50,007 nt of DNA from Eubacteriales bacterium. GTDB taxonomy: Bacteria; Bacillota; Clostridia; Lachnospirales; Lachnospiraceae. A program made the translations under genes and the position numbers. Shown here piece after piece: positions 8,440-49,887 of this stretch. Position 1 is the first letter of the stretch, and the number at the start of each line of letters is the position of its first letter. The notes below the pieces were generated by a model. That model did no database searches. It was not told the origin of the DNA and worked only from the letters and a program-made list of their open reading frames with translations. Location of the stretch: contig JAUNDE010000011.1 in NCBI GenBank assembly GCA_030526265.1, positions 1 through 50,007 of the forward strand. The letters run 5' to 3'.

Positions 8440-8484
8440 AAAGATATTCACTTTTTGAAGTAAATATGTTAGTATACAGACAAG

Positions 8485-8531
8485 AGCAGTTGCGAATTAT
8501 ATTTTTATAAATAGATTCGCAGCTGCTTTTT
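8485..8531 (+). terminator. intrinsic terminator of clpB
   Basis: A 13-bp stem (8485-8497 with 8515-8527, one G-U pair) with an A/T-rich loop runs into a T-tract. This is a textbook strong terminator. Confidence 0.88.
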
Positions 8532-8578
8532 GTTGCCATGCATCCGGAAGAAGCTGCCGGTGGCAGATTCTGTAGGTC

Positions 8579-8645
8579 ATGGCGACGAGGCAAGCGACAT
8601 CGTGCCTGCACGAAATGTTATTTGCCGACCGCTGATCAAAGCGAG
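8579..8645 (+). ncRNA. unidentified structured RNA element, copy 1 (upstream of yitT)
   Basis: The leader of yitT carries a segment that recurs at 48100-48168. It starts ATGGCGACGAG and ends GACCGCTGATCA. Visible pairings are TGGCG (8580-8584) with CGCTG (8630-8634), GGCAA (8589-8593) with TTGCC (8622-8626), and a hairpin CGTG (8601-8604) with CACG (8609-8612). The internal loop is ACGA facing GAC. The second copy keeps every pairing, with one compensatory change. It is not a member of any riboswitch class I can name. Whether it is a riboswitch, another regulatory RNA or a repeat element is open. Confidence 0.45.
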
Positions 8646-8669: not shown

Positions 8670-9527
8670 ATGTTGAAAAAGATAAACTACAAAGAACTTG
8701 GACTGGATCTGCTTGCGGATGTAGTAGGAGGTATGCTGGTAGCTGTTGGTGTGTATAATTTCGCACTGAATGCCAATTTCCCGGTTGCGGGATTTTCCGG
8801 AATTGCAATTGTCTTATATCATCTGTTTGGGATACCGGTAGGTACGGCGACGATTCTTCTGAATATCCCGGTTACGTTTCTCTGTTTCAAATTTCTCGGA
8901 AAGAGATTTCTGTTCAGATCACTGAAGTCTATGCTGATCTCTTCGATCCTCATCGACTATGTAGCGCCGCTGCTTCCTGTATATAATGGTGAGAGGATTC
9001 TTGCTGCAATCTGTATGGGTGTATTGTGTGGTGCCGGATATGCGATCATTTACATGAGAGATTCTTCTACTGGAGGACAGGATTTTATTACGATGTCAAT
9101 TAATAAGTTGCTTCCACATGTTACGATTGGATCTGCTTCACTTGTTCTTGATATTGTTACGATTCTGATCGGAAGTCTTCTTGTGTTCCGCGAGATGGAT
9201 GGTCTGTTATATGGTGTGATCGTATCATATATCATGGCTACACTTATGGATCGTATCATGTACGGAATCTATGAAGGGAAAATGACACTTATCATTACCG
9301 AACGCGGAGAAGATATCGTGAATCAGATTGACGAGCATTCCGGCAGAGGTGCAACGATTTTAAAAGGAGTCGGGGGATATTCAAAGAGAGACAAGGATGT
9401 TGTCCTCTGTGCATGCAATAATAAGGAAATGTACCGGATCAAGCGTCAGGTGAAAGAAATCGATCCAAAGGCATTTACTATTATCGTAGAGTCAAACGAA
9501 GTGGTCGGAGAAGGCTTCCGGGAATAG
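8670..9527 (+). CDS. YitT-family membrane protein with DUF2179 domain
   Basis: The 285-residue product has an N-terminal integral membrane part of five or six spans with the YitT signatures (NFPVAGFSGIA, STGGQDFI). A soluble C-terminal DUF2179 domain of about 75 residues follows, including GRGATILKGVGGYS and ending in TIIVESNEVVGEGF. The family is widespread in Firmicutes and has no firm biochemical function. The frame is open from 8538, but ATG 8670 follows AAAGGAGG at 8653-8660. The extension would run through the structured element just upstream and is rejected. Confidence 0.9.
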   Translation: MLKKINYKELGLDLLADVVGGMLVAVGVYNFALNANFPVAGFSGIAIVLYHLFGIPVGTATILLNIPVTFLCFKFLGKRFLFRSLKSMLISSILIDYVAPLLPVYNGERILAAICMGVLCGAGYAIIYMRDSSTGGQDFITMSINKLLPHVTIGSASLVLDIVTILIGSLLVFREMDGLLYGVIVSYIMATLMDRIMYGIYEGKMTLIITERGEDIVNQIDEHSGRGATILKGVGGYSKRDKDVVLCACNNKEMYRIKRQVKEIDPKAFTIIVESNEVVGEGFRE

Positions 9528-47830: not shown

Positions 47831-47865
47831 ATCATTAGTGATAAAACAATATATATTGTGAATAA

Positions 47866-48028
47866 CTTGGTAGAGGTGCGGCTTTCATGAGTATCTTTGA
47901 AGCGATAGTCCGGCAGACTGTTTTGAGAGAAAGGGAAAATCGCCGAAGGAATGGTTCCGGCCGGGAATCAGACCTGGGACGAGGCAGAAGATGCTTCGTA
48001 CTGTCACAAATGTGGAGCGCTATCATGG
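47866..48028 (+). ncRNA. lysine riboswitch (L-box)
   Basis: The conserved core segments of the lysine aptamer appear in order. They are GAGGTGCGGC with CATGAGTATCTTTG, GGGAAAATCGCCGAAGG, GGTTCCGG paired with its partner, CTGGGACGAGG, the AGAAGATGCTTCGTACTGTCA hairpin region, and the closing GTGGAGCGCTATC that pairs back with GGTAG at the 5' end. The five-helix junction is intact by eye. Lysine binding should favour the terminator immediately downstream and switch off the NhaC-family gene. Confidence 0.93.
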
Positions 48029-48053
48029 ATTACGAAAGAGCAGGCTTGTTATG

Positions 48054-48092
48054 CCATGTATATCGTTCTGTGAGCGGTGTACATGGTTTTTT
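48054..48092 (+). terminator. expression-platform terminator of the lysine riboswitch
   Basis: A 12-bp stem (48054-48065 with 48075-48086, two G-U pairs) with a 9-base loop is followed by six T residues. It lies 26 bases after the aptamer. Confidence 0.85.
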
Positions 48093-48099
48093 GTTTGTT

Positions 48100-48168
48100 A
48101 TGGCGATGAGCCAAAGTCCGTGCTCGCATGAGACCCTGGCGACCGCTGATCATTGATATGAAGCGAAG
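48100..48168 (+). ncRNA. unidentified structured RNA element, copy 2 (between riboswitch terminator and NhaC gene)
   Basis: This is the second copy of the element at 8579-8645. It starts ATGGCGATGAG and has GACCGCTGATCA at 48141-48152. TGGCG (48101-48105) can pair with CGCTG (48144-48148), GCCA (48110-48113) with TGGC (48137-48140), and CGTG (48119-48122) with CATG (48127-48130). The second stem swaps a G-C pair of copy 1 for C-G, so pairing is kept while the sequence changes. The internal loop ATGA/GAC is kept. The element is transcribed only if the lysine riboswitch terminator is passed, unless it has its own promoter, which I do not see. Confidence 0.45.
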
Positions 48169-48276
48169 CAGAATAGAGGTGATCAGGCGATGAGCTTGCA
48201 CAGATGGACATTTGGCAGATGTTATTTACAAAGGGAAACTATAATAGGAAACAAAAGAGAGAAAGAGGTTATGATT

Positions 48277-49887
48277 ATGAGAAATGCAAAACACAAATGG
48301 ATGTGGGCAGTTTCCACAGTACTGTTAGCAGTTATGTGCTGTCCTGTGTTGGCGTTTGCTGCAGAAGAGGCTGAAGAATATGTGCCTGCGATGTATGCAA
48401 GTTTCTGGGCACTTGTTCCGCCGATCGTGGCGATTGCTCTTGCGCTGATCACAAAAGAAGTTTACAGTTCACTGTTTGTAGGAATTCTGATCGGAGGACT
48501 TTTCTATTCGGGATTCTCATTTGAGGGAACGATCAATCACGTATTCCAGGATGGTATCATCGGAGTGCTTTCCGACGGATATAATGTTGGTATCCTTGTA
48601 TTCCTTGTCGTACTTGGTATTATGGTGTGTCTGATGAACAAAGCCGGCGGTTCGGCTGCATTCGGACGTTGGGCAGAGACACATATCAAGACGCGTACAG
48701 GTGCACAGCTTGCAACGATCGTTCTTGGATGCCTGATCTTCATCGATGATTATTTCAACTGTCTTACAGTCGGCAGTGTTATGCGTCCGGTAACAGACAA
48801 ACACAATATCTCACGTGCAAAGCTGTCTTATCTGATTGACGCGACAGCAGCTCCGGTCTGCATCATTGCTCCGATTTCATCATGGGCAGCAGCAGTGACC
48901 GGTTTCGTTGAGGGAGAAGACGGATTCTCTATCTTTATCCGCGCAATTCCATTTAACTTCTATGCACTCCTCACGATCGTGATGATGCTTGGTCTTGTAT
49001 TCTTTAAGATGGATTACGGCCCGATGAAAGTGCATGAAGACAATGCAGAGAAGAAAGGTGACCTTTACACGACACCTGACAGACCGTACGCAAATGCAGA
49101 GAATGAAGCACCGAGCAGCAGGGGAACAGTTATCGACCTGGTTTTCCCAATCGCATCTCTGATCATCGCATGTGTGATCGGAATGATCTGGACAGGCGGA
49201 TTCTTCAGTGGAGAAGGATTTGTCACAGCATTCTCTAACAGTGATGCATCGGTTGGTCTTGCAGTGGGAAGTTTTATTGCATTTATCATCACAATCGTAT
49301 TCTACCTTGTCCGCAGAGTGTTGAAATTCAGCGAATGTATGGAATGTGTACCGGATGGATTTAAGGCAATGGTACCGGCGATCCTGATCCTTACACTTGC
49401 ATGGACACTGAAGGCAATGACAGACAGCCTCGGTGCAGCAGTCTTCGTAGCAGGTGCAATGGAAAATGTAGCAGGAGGACTTGTAAATCTTCTTCCGGCG
49501 ATCATCTTCCTTGTAGGATGCTTCCTCGCTTTTGCGACAGGAACATCATGGGGAACATTTGGTATTCTTATTCCGATCGTAGTTGCAGTATTTGCAGGAA
49601 CAAATGAGACAATGATGATCATTTCAATCTCTGCATGTATGGCTGGCGCGGTTTGTGGAGACCACTGCTCACCGATCTCAGATACAACGATCATGGCATC
49701 TGCCGGCGGACAGTGTAATCACGTAAATCACGTATCTACACAGCTTCCATATGCCCTTACAGTAGCGGCAGTGTCATTCGTGACATATATCGTAGTAGGA
49801 TTTGCTCAGTCTGCATTTATCGCACTTCCGGTTGGAGTAGTGCTGATGCTTGGAGTTCTTCTGGTTCTTAGAAAAAAGAATGCATAG
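48277..49887 (+). CDS. NhaC-family antiporter-like protein, predicted lysine transporter (LysW type)
   Basis: This 536-residue membrane protein has an N-terminal signal-like segment ending near AFA and 11 or 12 spans. The NhaC-family features are ATAAPVCIIAPISSWAA, FATGTSWGTFGI and CGDHCSPISDTTIMAS. The family exchanges Na+ and H+, but members under L-box control have been proposed as lysine transporters (LysW), and the riboswitch here supports that. The start chosen is ATG 48277, 8 bases after AGAGG; ATG 48271 is only 2 bases from it, and the frame opened at 48190 has no ribosome binding site. Confidence 0.92.
   Translation: MRNAKHKWMWAVSTVLLAVMCCPVLAFAAEEAEEYVPAMYASFWALVPPIVAIALALITKEVYSSLFVGILIGGLFYSGFSFEGTINHVFQDGIIGVLSDGYNVGILVFLVVLGIMVCLMNKAGGSAAFGRWAETHIKTRTGAQLATIVLGCLIFIDDYFNCLTVGSVMRPVTDKHNISRAKLSYLIDATAAPVCIIAPISSWAAAVTGFVEGEDGFSIFIRAIPFNFYALLTIVMMLGLVFFKMDYGPMKVHEDNAEKKGDLYTTPDRPYANAENEAPSSRGTVIDLVFPIASLIIACVIGMIWTGGFFSGEGFVTAFSNSDASVGLAVGSFIAFIITIVFYLVRRVLKFSECMECVPDGFKAMVPAILILTLAWTLKAMTDSLGAAVFVAGAMENVAGGLVNLLPAIIFLVGCFLAFATGTSWGTFGILIPIVVAVFAGTNETMMIISISACMAGAVCGDHCSPISDTTIMASAGGQCNHVNHVSTQLPYALTVAAVSFVTYIVVGFAQSAFIALPVGVVLMLGVLLVLRKKNA

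Follow-up and report, generated by a model that had tools for sequence, protein, structure and literature searches.

The window (the whole 50,007-nucleotide stretch analysed here) carries two copies, A and B, of a short structured element, one between clpB and yitT and the other between a lysine riboswitch and an NhaC-like gene (Table 1). The preliminary description had recognised two similar elements in the leaders of these genes and both were recovered, although its limits for copy A (8579-8645) had to be replaced by those of Table 1. Membrane transporter-like genes do follow both copies, encoding a YitT-family protein (PF02588) and a protein of the Na+/H+ antiporter family (PF03553); for the latter only the family assignment was retained, its score being far below the cut-off of the NhaC equivalog. 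The lysine riboswitch before this gene was confirmed as RF00168. An intrinsic terminator had also been proposed before each copy. Terminator-like hairpins are present at both places, but copy A does not touch its T-tract, a 44-nt unit lying between the two.

Table 1. Features at the two copies in the window. R1 and R2 are the covariance models described below; the R1 scores of copies A and B are not independent, as R1 was built from these two copies.
Feature	Position	Strand	Basis
Terminator-like hairpin and T-tract between clpB and yitT	8482..8531	+	inverted repeat 8482-8497/8515-8530, then T's
44-nt second module (GTTGCCATGCATCCGG...TCTGTAG) on the T-tract, before copy A	8532..8575	+	near-identical unit in G000:C95, diverged one in L142
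Copy A, hairpin-1 part; hairpin 2 not recognisable	8576..8638	+	R1 86.8 bits, R2 54.3 bits
YitT-family membrane protein gene, context downstream of copy A, outside the element	8670..9527	+	PF02588, E 6e-49
Lysine riboswitch aptamer, context	47863..48030	+	RF00168, 101.8 bits
Terminator hairpin and T-rich tract after the lysine riboswitch	48054..48096	+	inverted repeat 48054-48068/48072-48086, fold
Copy B, hairpin-1 part	48097..48152	+	R1 61.3 bits, R2 38.4 bits
Copy B, hairpin-2 part, overlaps TGATCA end	48148..48184	+	MFE fold of 48040-48186 (z -4.06 for this whole stretch, terminator included)
Degenerate shortened second unit in tandem (GGCGATGAG...ATTTGGC)	48186..48216	+	read from sequence; direct repeat
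Na+/H+ antiporter-family (NhaC-like) gene, context downstream of copy B	48277..49887	+	PF03553, E 8e-54

The sequence GACCGCTGATCA occurs exactly twice in the window and three times on the forward strand of the whole genome, where the reversed-pattern control gave no match. The third genomic occurrence was rejected as a copy of the element, as it lies inside a coding sequence, presumably ispD. When copy B was padded with N to match the register of copy A, all 21 proposed pairs were standard wherever letters were present on both sides; four pairs were altered on both sides and two on one side, which was equalled by 32 of 500 shuffles. RNAfold gave the same stems for A and B with modest z-scores (-2.1 and -1.2, respectively), in agreement with the earlier observation that the same stems form although the primary sequence differs. 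Since A and B alone prove little, further copies were sought.

In 7 of 10 genus relatives yitT has in front of it the same hairpin as that at 8482-8531, and the element is absent there. A TTGACA/TATAAT-like promoter precedes yitT in 7 of the 10 relatives (window 8448-8531), from which a transcript would start almost at the hairpin. The conserved terminator-like hairpin has a AGAGCAGYNGCGAATTATANTTTTATAGTTTGC-like sequence followed by GCTGCTTTTTT, with its loop sequence also conserved, and might function in attenuation or as a short RNA. The different 44-nt hairpin module (GTTGCCATGCATCCGG...TTCTGTAG) shares the niche of the element, standing on a T-tract or behind a unit: it was found near-identical before a truncated copy at G000:C95 (L229 1456, +) and diverged behind a full unit in L142 (6829, +).

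Architecture and covariation of the unit

A unit is about 90-100 nt long and consists of an imperfect hairpin (hairpin 1) around a nearly invariant AYGA/GA internal loop, followed by a second hairpin (hairpin 2). The order is the end of the T-tract, GTTATGGC, P0, P1, the AYGA/GA loop, a long variable stem, CGACYGCTAATCA and hairpin 2, other subtypes starting with GTGAAGGC, GTGTTAAC, GTATTGGC or CGCGAAG at the 5' side. The variable stem of hairpin 1 is often closed by CUUG, and the loop of hairpin 2 is often GCGAAGC or GCAAAGC. Head-to-tail units were spaced 89-97 nt in the arrays read and wider in others, with subtypes sometimes mixed; tandem partial units, like the one after copy B, are present at other copies too. 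The 17 left-end loci inspected for longer autonomous versions proved to be full units or fragments, apart from one array and a chance match in coding sequence. At L171 (6123-6283, -), an internally deleted 40-nt unit is repeated four times head to tail.

The 52 distinct copies of hairpin 1, in an alignment fitted to the model, showed two-sided changes in 20 of the 21 pairs, and 92.3% of the cells pair as against 70.3% on shuffling, copy counts being inflated by the relatedness of copies. For the same 52 sequences the proposed structure scored 0.499, and structures slid along the alignment reached at most 0.086. Whole units were aligned with MAFFT (alignment A4, 37 of 45 selected units, eight left out by eye), and the structure drawn by the analyst on that same alignment gave two-sided changes in 28 of 38 pairs (hairpin 2, 11 of 14). 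The preliminary description had argued from two copies for selection on base pairing, and this larger set bears it out more strongly than was claimed. In A4, the 5' tip finds its partner at the end of hairpin 1 and not at the unit's 3' end, where the terminal inverted repeats of a MITE would place it; in a related subtype, GTTGCA is closed by TGCAAC (L066, L072). The subtype starting with GTTGCAMNAGNCY on the T-tract (L072 1988 +; L062, L065, L066), which has the TGCAAC closure in L066 and L072, is alike in its inner hairpin, and continuous pairing seems to replace the AYGA/GA loop.

The asymmetric internal loop, reported earlier as conserved between A and B, proved to be among the most conserved parts of the element. 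Among 13 subtype examples chosen by hand, AYGA was present in 12 and ACAA in one, and GA plus one nucleotide stood opposite in all 13. The surrounding P1 varied (GCG/CGC, GCA/TGC, GTG/CAC, ACA/TGT, ATA/TAT, GTA/TAC). A canonical kink-turn has a 3-nt bulge opposite nothing, with tandem sheared G.A pairs next to a helix. By sequence, the element resembles it in its asymmetric loop and in the tandem G.A possible beside a helix, but differs in that the loop is 4x3, with one extra nucleotide on the second strand.

With a strand-blind pairing score, the stems contained 47 G.T as against 12 A.C mismatches (22:7 in hairpin 1 and 25:5 in hairpin 2), and the ratios without the outermost pair were 28:11 and 58:22 in the two alignments. 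P1 was symmetric in this respect, with three G.T and three A.C of 79. The excess of G.T over A.C shows that folding is mainly that of the sense strand. As G.T is tolerated better than A.C in DNA as well, the excess names the strand and not RNA over DNA.

Distribution of the repeat

The covariance model R1, built from copies A and B, was searched with strict filters and rough E-values against 397 sampled Lachnospiraceae genomes. Matches were obtained in 62 of them at E<=0.1 and in 46 at E<=0.001, with no match in the other 335 at E<=0.1. This search, which the preliminary description had recommended, thus gave many further copies, and with covariation. R1 matches numbered 13 in G166 (the maximum), 11 in G187, 8 in G086 and 7 in the window's own genome, and left ends of the element numbered up to 20 in one genome. 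Of 11 genus genomes, the model R2, built on the whole unit from 37 sequences, matched 9 at E<=0.1 (up to 15 matches each) and 8 at E<=0.001 (up to 11 each); in the class it matched 8 of 391 genomes, two of which, from other families, gave 10 and 8 matches. Among 24 genus matches read, some weak ones (e.g. L338, L339, L342, L343, L346, L347) were devoid of the AYGA loop. All seven matches read in G153 comprise the inner stem of copy B (GCCAAAGTCC...GAGACCTTGGC) and stand on T-tracts. In G693, from another family, the unit lies within a longer conserved repeat with its own upstream hairpin (L249, L255, L259, L262, L265, L267, L270, L272).

At least 117 stretches were found in named genomes with the pattern GTTATGGCRAYGAG N25-50 CGACYGCTAATCA. 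Among the 80 stretches listed by title, most were from Lachnospiraceae, Butyrivibrio, Kineothrix, Eubacterium, Acetatifactor and Colinaster; some were titled only 'bacterium' or 'Eubacteriales', and one was from Oscillospiraceae. The flanks of G166, G187, G086 and G017 were exactly identical to those in Acetatifactor sp. RUI119, Kineothrix sp. MSJ-39, SRR11489746_bin.3 and a Butyrivibrio MAG, respectively, which identified the sampled family as Lachnospiraceae. Patterns ending in TGATCA or TGA recovered only the window's own copies from 150 family and 11 genus genomes, TAATCA being the usual ending of the copies found afterwards. The element is a multi-copy interspersed repeat in Clostridia, mostly Lachnospiraceae. 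It is chromosome-borne; the exact pattern had no match in 2.9 million viral contigs, 72,556 plasmid records gave no match either, and 50,697 phage records yielded one partial match (47%) and no full copy. No Rfam family was detected at the element with gathering or relaxed thresholds, in the window or at nine further loci. Contigs of the JAGHUN MAG (L093, L097, L117, L158 at both ends, L159) end within about 35 bases of a copy, so that assembly from short reads is probably interrupted at the repeat and its copy number underestimated.

Position relative to terminators and genes

Upstream context was evaluated in a base set of 123 copies, of which seven with short upstream sequence were dropped. 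In the remaining 116 (at least 50 nt of upstream sequence), T was present at -1 in 110 and at -3 in 111. After nine tandem copies had also been dropped, 94 of 107 passed a strict hairpin-plus-T test, the stem ending 3-10 nt from the element, as compared to 14 of 1975 random and 19 of 1980 nearby positions (about 1%). Among the 13 misses, examined by eye, 11 were terminators with longer loops or A+T-rich stems, L105 was not a terminator and L169 was ambiguous; L199 passed at the threshold, yet was not terminator-like in appearance. Tandem junctions lack a T-tract. The GC-rich subtypes at L059, L248, L251 and L340 were judged by eye to be opposite to the neighbouring gene and not behind a terminator. 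Neighbouring genes were assigned mechanically for 92 copies, those with less than 600 nt upstream (23) and in tandem (8) being left out: the nearest upstream feature was co-directional in 83 (80 ORFs and 3 tRNAs) and the next downstream ORF in 61. The common context of the copies is the upstream terminator.

Such a position might be the outcome of selection if the element were useful to the host at the 3' end of transcripts, for readthrough processing or as an mRNA 3'-end or insulator RNA. Its exact placement behind terminators in several genera, the sense-strand structure and the co-directional upstream features (83 of 92) would fit this explanation, which we nevertheless hold to be unlikely: the element is patchy, 335 of 397 family genomes being without a match at E<=0.1, it occurs as arrays and fragments, and its upstream genes have little in common. 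In the latter set (72 of 73 proteins, L141 left out), no Pfam family was common to more than four, these being TPR repeats.

The preliminary description had considered the element as a cis-regulatory RNA, a riboswitch or kink-turn leader, for transporter genes. Strong covariation, the conserved internal loop, the location of both A and B in leaders and the co-directional ORF next downstream in 61 of 92 copies are all compatible with such a role. However, among the downstream genes (52 of 56 co-directional proteins within 400 nt; L105, L113, L154 and L162 left out) no Pfam family was common to more than three. The copies are scattered, similar copies occur at unrelated sites with unrelated flanks, partial units occur in tandem, the position of the copies is set by the upstream terminator, and the element is missing before yitT in relatives. 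That description had itself put forward scatter without relation to downstream genes as evidence against a riboswitch, and the listing of the downstream genes revealed just this, so that by its own reasoning the riboswitch reading falls; we consider it most improbable. Copies A and B need not regulate yitT or the NhaC-like gene; single copies may have been co-opted. It is a warning for annotation that copies situated in leaders may be mistaken for orphan riboswitches.

Spread of the repeat and its possible routes

Units of the same genome are more alike than those of different genomes. Median unit identity was 0.93 within genomes (147 pairs) and 0.75 between genomes (335 sampled pairs), as compared to 0.54 and 0.51, respectively, for the 40 nt upstream of the units; 62 of the 123 copies, from 14 genomes with at least two loci each, with full flanks and not in tandem, were used. 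The genomes G086 and RGIG406, which represent sister species, differ in occupancy in both directions. At site 1, RGIG406 (L203) has two full units and one broken unit directly behind a terminator; in G086 (L132) the terminator is kept and 52 nt of other sequence follow until the flanks align again. At site 2 it is G086 (L081) that is occupied, by a unit within a stretch of 93 nt following the terminator; RGIG406 has 84 nt of unrelated A+T-rich sequence instead, with both flanks aligning at about 89%. L081 is one of five G086 sites compared with RGIG406, all of which except L085 could be placed. L084, L086 and L087 are occupied in both genomes, one of them with an extra unit in RGIG406; the array length differs at another shared site too, making two shared sites with a length difference. 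No target duplication was seen in the two occupied/empty pairs, where the host stretch at the T-tract is replaced. As the two differing sites lack polarisation by an outgroup, they may also represent losses.

Fragments of the element keep the 5' end. In L088-L204, as judged by eye, 18 units were left-only and none was right-only without the left tip. Here, 25 left-only rows had been reduced by two coding hits and five diverged full units, and eight rows elsewhere were left out. The 12 right-only rows included one in L088-L204, which keeps the left tip; the others were mostly diverged or internally deleted, one looked like chance, and L053 and L210 were ambiguous. Selection to keep the terminator could also give such a bias towards the 5' end.

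Selection on structure, per-genome families, docking, stacking, the two occupied/empty pairs and the 5'-keeping fragments, all read from the sequences, are best explained by a non-autonomous, chromosome-borne, structured interspersed repeat that multiplies in the genomes of clostridia and takes its place immediately 3' of intrinsic terminators, and we regard this explanation as probable. The site behind a terminator would be tolerated because no gene is broken there.

Three explanations of how such a repeat might move were weighed against first-pass searches for reverse transcriptase (RVT_1) and Y1 transposase in draft genomes 93-100% complete, the Y1 search covering carriers other than RGIG406. 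RVT_1 was found in the carriers G785 (RGIG406; 5 matches), G356, G277, G122 and G693, and was not found in G187, G086, G000 and G166, each with 7-20 copies or left ends. Y1 was found in the carriers G166, G277 and G122, and also in G150 and G151; Y1_Tnp was not found in the carriers G000, G187, G086, G017 and G356. Thus neither enzyme was detected in G187, G086 and G000, and G086 holds a copy that is absent from RGIG406. These enzymes were not detected in several carriers, and no full copy turned up among the viral, plasmid and phage sequences, so that the mobilizer may be lost, of another kind, or absent.

The target would suit an element derived from a group IIC intron, or carried along by group IIC intron machinery, and inserted by reverse splicing into DNA behind a terminator hairpin. 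An intron would have to be longer than the roughly 95 nt of the element. In fragments of the element it is the 3' end that is lost, whereas an inserted intron, when reverse transcribed, would be truncated at its 5' end. For bacterial-C (group IIC) introns, insertion immediately after Rho-independent terminators is described in the portion of PMC8919778 on which we draw. As far as that portion goes, the element shares this target (94 of 107 by the strict test) and the sense orientation, and differs in its length, 3' truncation and tandem stacking. The sequence behind the T-tract starts with GT in many subtypes, and RGIG406 has RVT_1 matches. However, the nine loci scanned had no Rfam group II ribozyme match, four carriers are without a detected reverse transcriptase, and the copy of G086 that RGIG406 lacks lies in one of these, so that we give this origin little credence.

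A REP-like repeat, moved as single-stranded DNA by a Y1 (RAYT or IS200/IS605) transposase, would likewise account for short hairpins, tandem clusters and chromosomal per-genome families, and Y1 genes are present in the carriers G166, G277 and G122. RAYT-associated REP and BIME sequences are similar in being short intergenic hairpin repeats in clusters and per-genome families, in the part of PMC6006769 available. In contrast to the inverted doublets of these, the element lies head to tail, in one orientation behind terminators; the GT[AG]G foot 5' of the hairpin is absent, the 5' ends being GTTATGG, GTGAAGG, GTGTTAA, GTATTGG and CGCGAAG, and five carriers have no Y1_Tnp match. This route is therefore very unlikely in our estimate.

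No dedicated enzyme would be needed if the host DNA polymerase stalled at a terminator hairpin and the T-tract 3' end annealed to another A-tract or element site, copied the element and rejoined the host further on, selection or drift then keeping the copies. The 5' junction at the T's, the variable 3' ends, the 52 nt and 84 nt of host sequence behind the T-tract without a counterpart in the occupied sites, and the carriers without detected RT and Y1 all point in this direction. Against it, the choice of this sequence over any other behind terminators is left unexplained, the T-tract is missing at tandem junctions, and there are only two pairs, both unpolarised, in which intergenic sequence may differ for other reasons. 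We consider template switching of this type conceivable but rather doubtful.

For the spreading repeat that we favour, we tentatively suggest the following scheme; that it would need neither reverse transcriptase nor Y1 is conceivable but less likely than not. The folded sense strand would be added at a hairpin plus T-tract; copying would run from the T-tract outwards and rejoin the host further on, and host sequence beside the T-tract would be replaced for that reason. The terminators might then act as a genome-wide docking array, with units stacking in tandem and the last one aborted. Copies A and B would have landed behind the clpB/yitT and lysine-riboswitch terminators by the same route.

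Small interspersed chromosomal repeats of a comparable kind are BOX, RUP and SPRITE of Streptococcus pneumoniae, which have predicted structure, are modular and transpose slowly, and which, in the portion of PMC3049150 used here, show no clear relation to the function of flanking genes. The element is like BOX in being multi-copy, intergenic, structured, modular and unrelated to particular genes. In one pneumococcal case, a BOX and two T-box riboswitches together make up a composite RNA (same portion of PMC3049150), which may be set beside copy B following a lysine riboswitch. In this comparison of organisation, BOX and RUP differ in having terminal inverted repeats and target duplications, and SPRITE is itself terminator-like whereas the element sits behind other terminators. 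The best reading is that the element is like BOX and REP in kind and like group IIC introns in target, likenesses that stop short of membership in either. Among the open-licence PMC papers listed, judged by title and start of abstract, none describes this repeat; an unnamed model of it within PMC8040213 is possible. An abundant, strongly covarying element with no Rfam family is now placed in a major group of gut bacteria, and its exact docking at terminators in several genomes without detected RT or Y1 poses a testable question, namely by what means copies of a folded repeat of 95 nt come to be placed at the ends of transcription units.

A second repeat was encountered at the L087 site, where a palindromic sequence of about 66 nt (query 1641-1706, upstream of the L087 element) precedes the element in G086 and RGIG406 has another T-tract at that place. 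Dozens of matches to this palindromic repeat are present in both G086 and G785.
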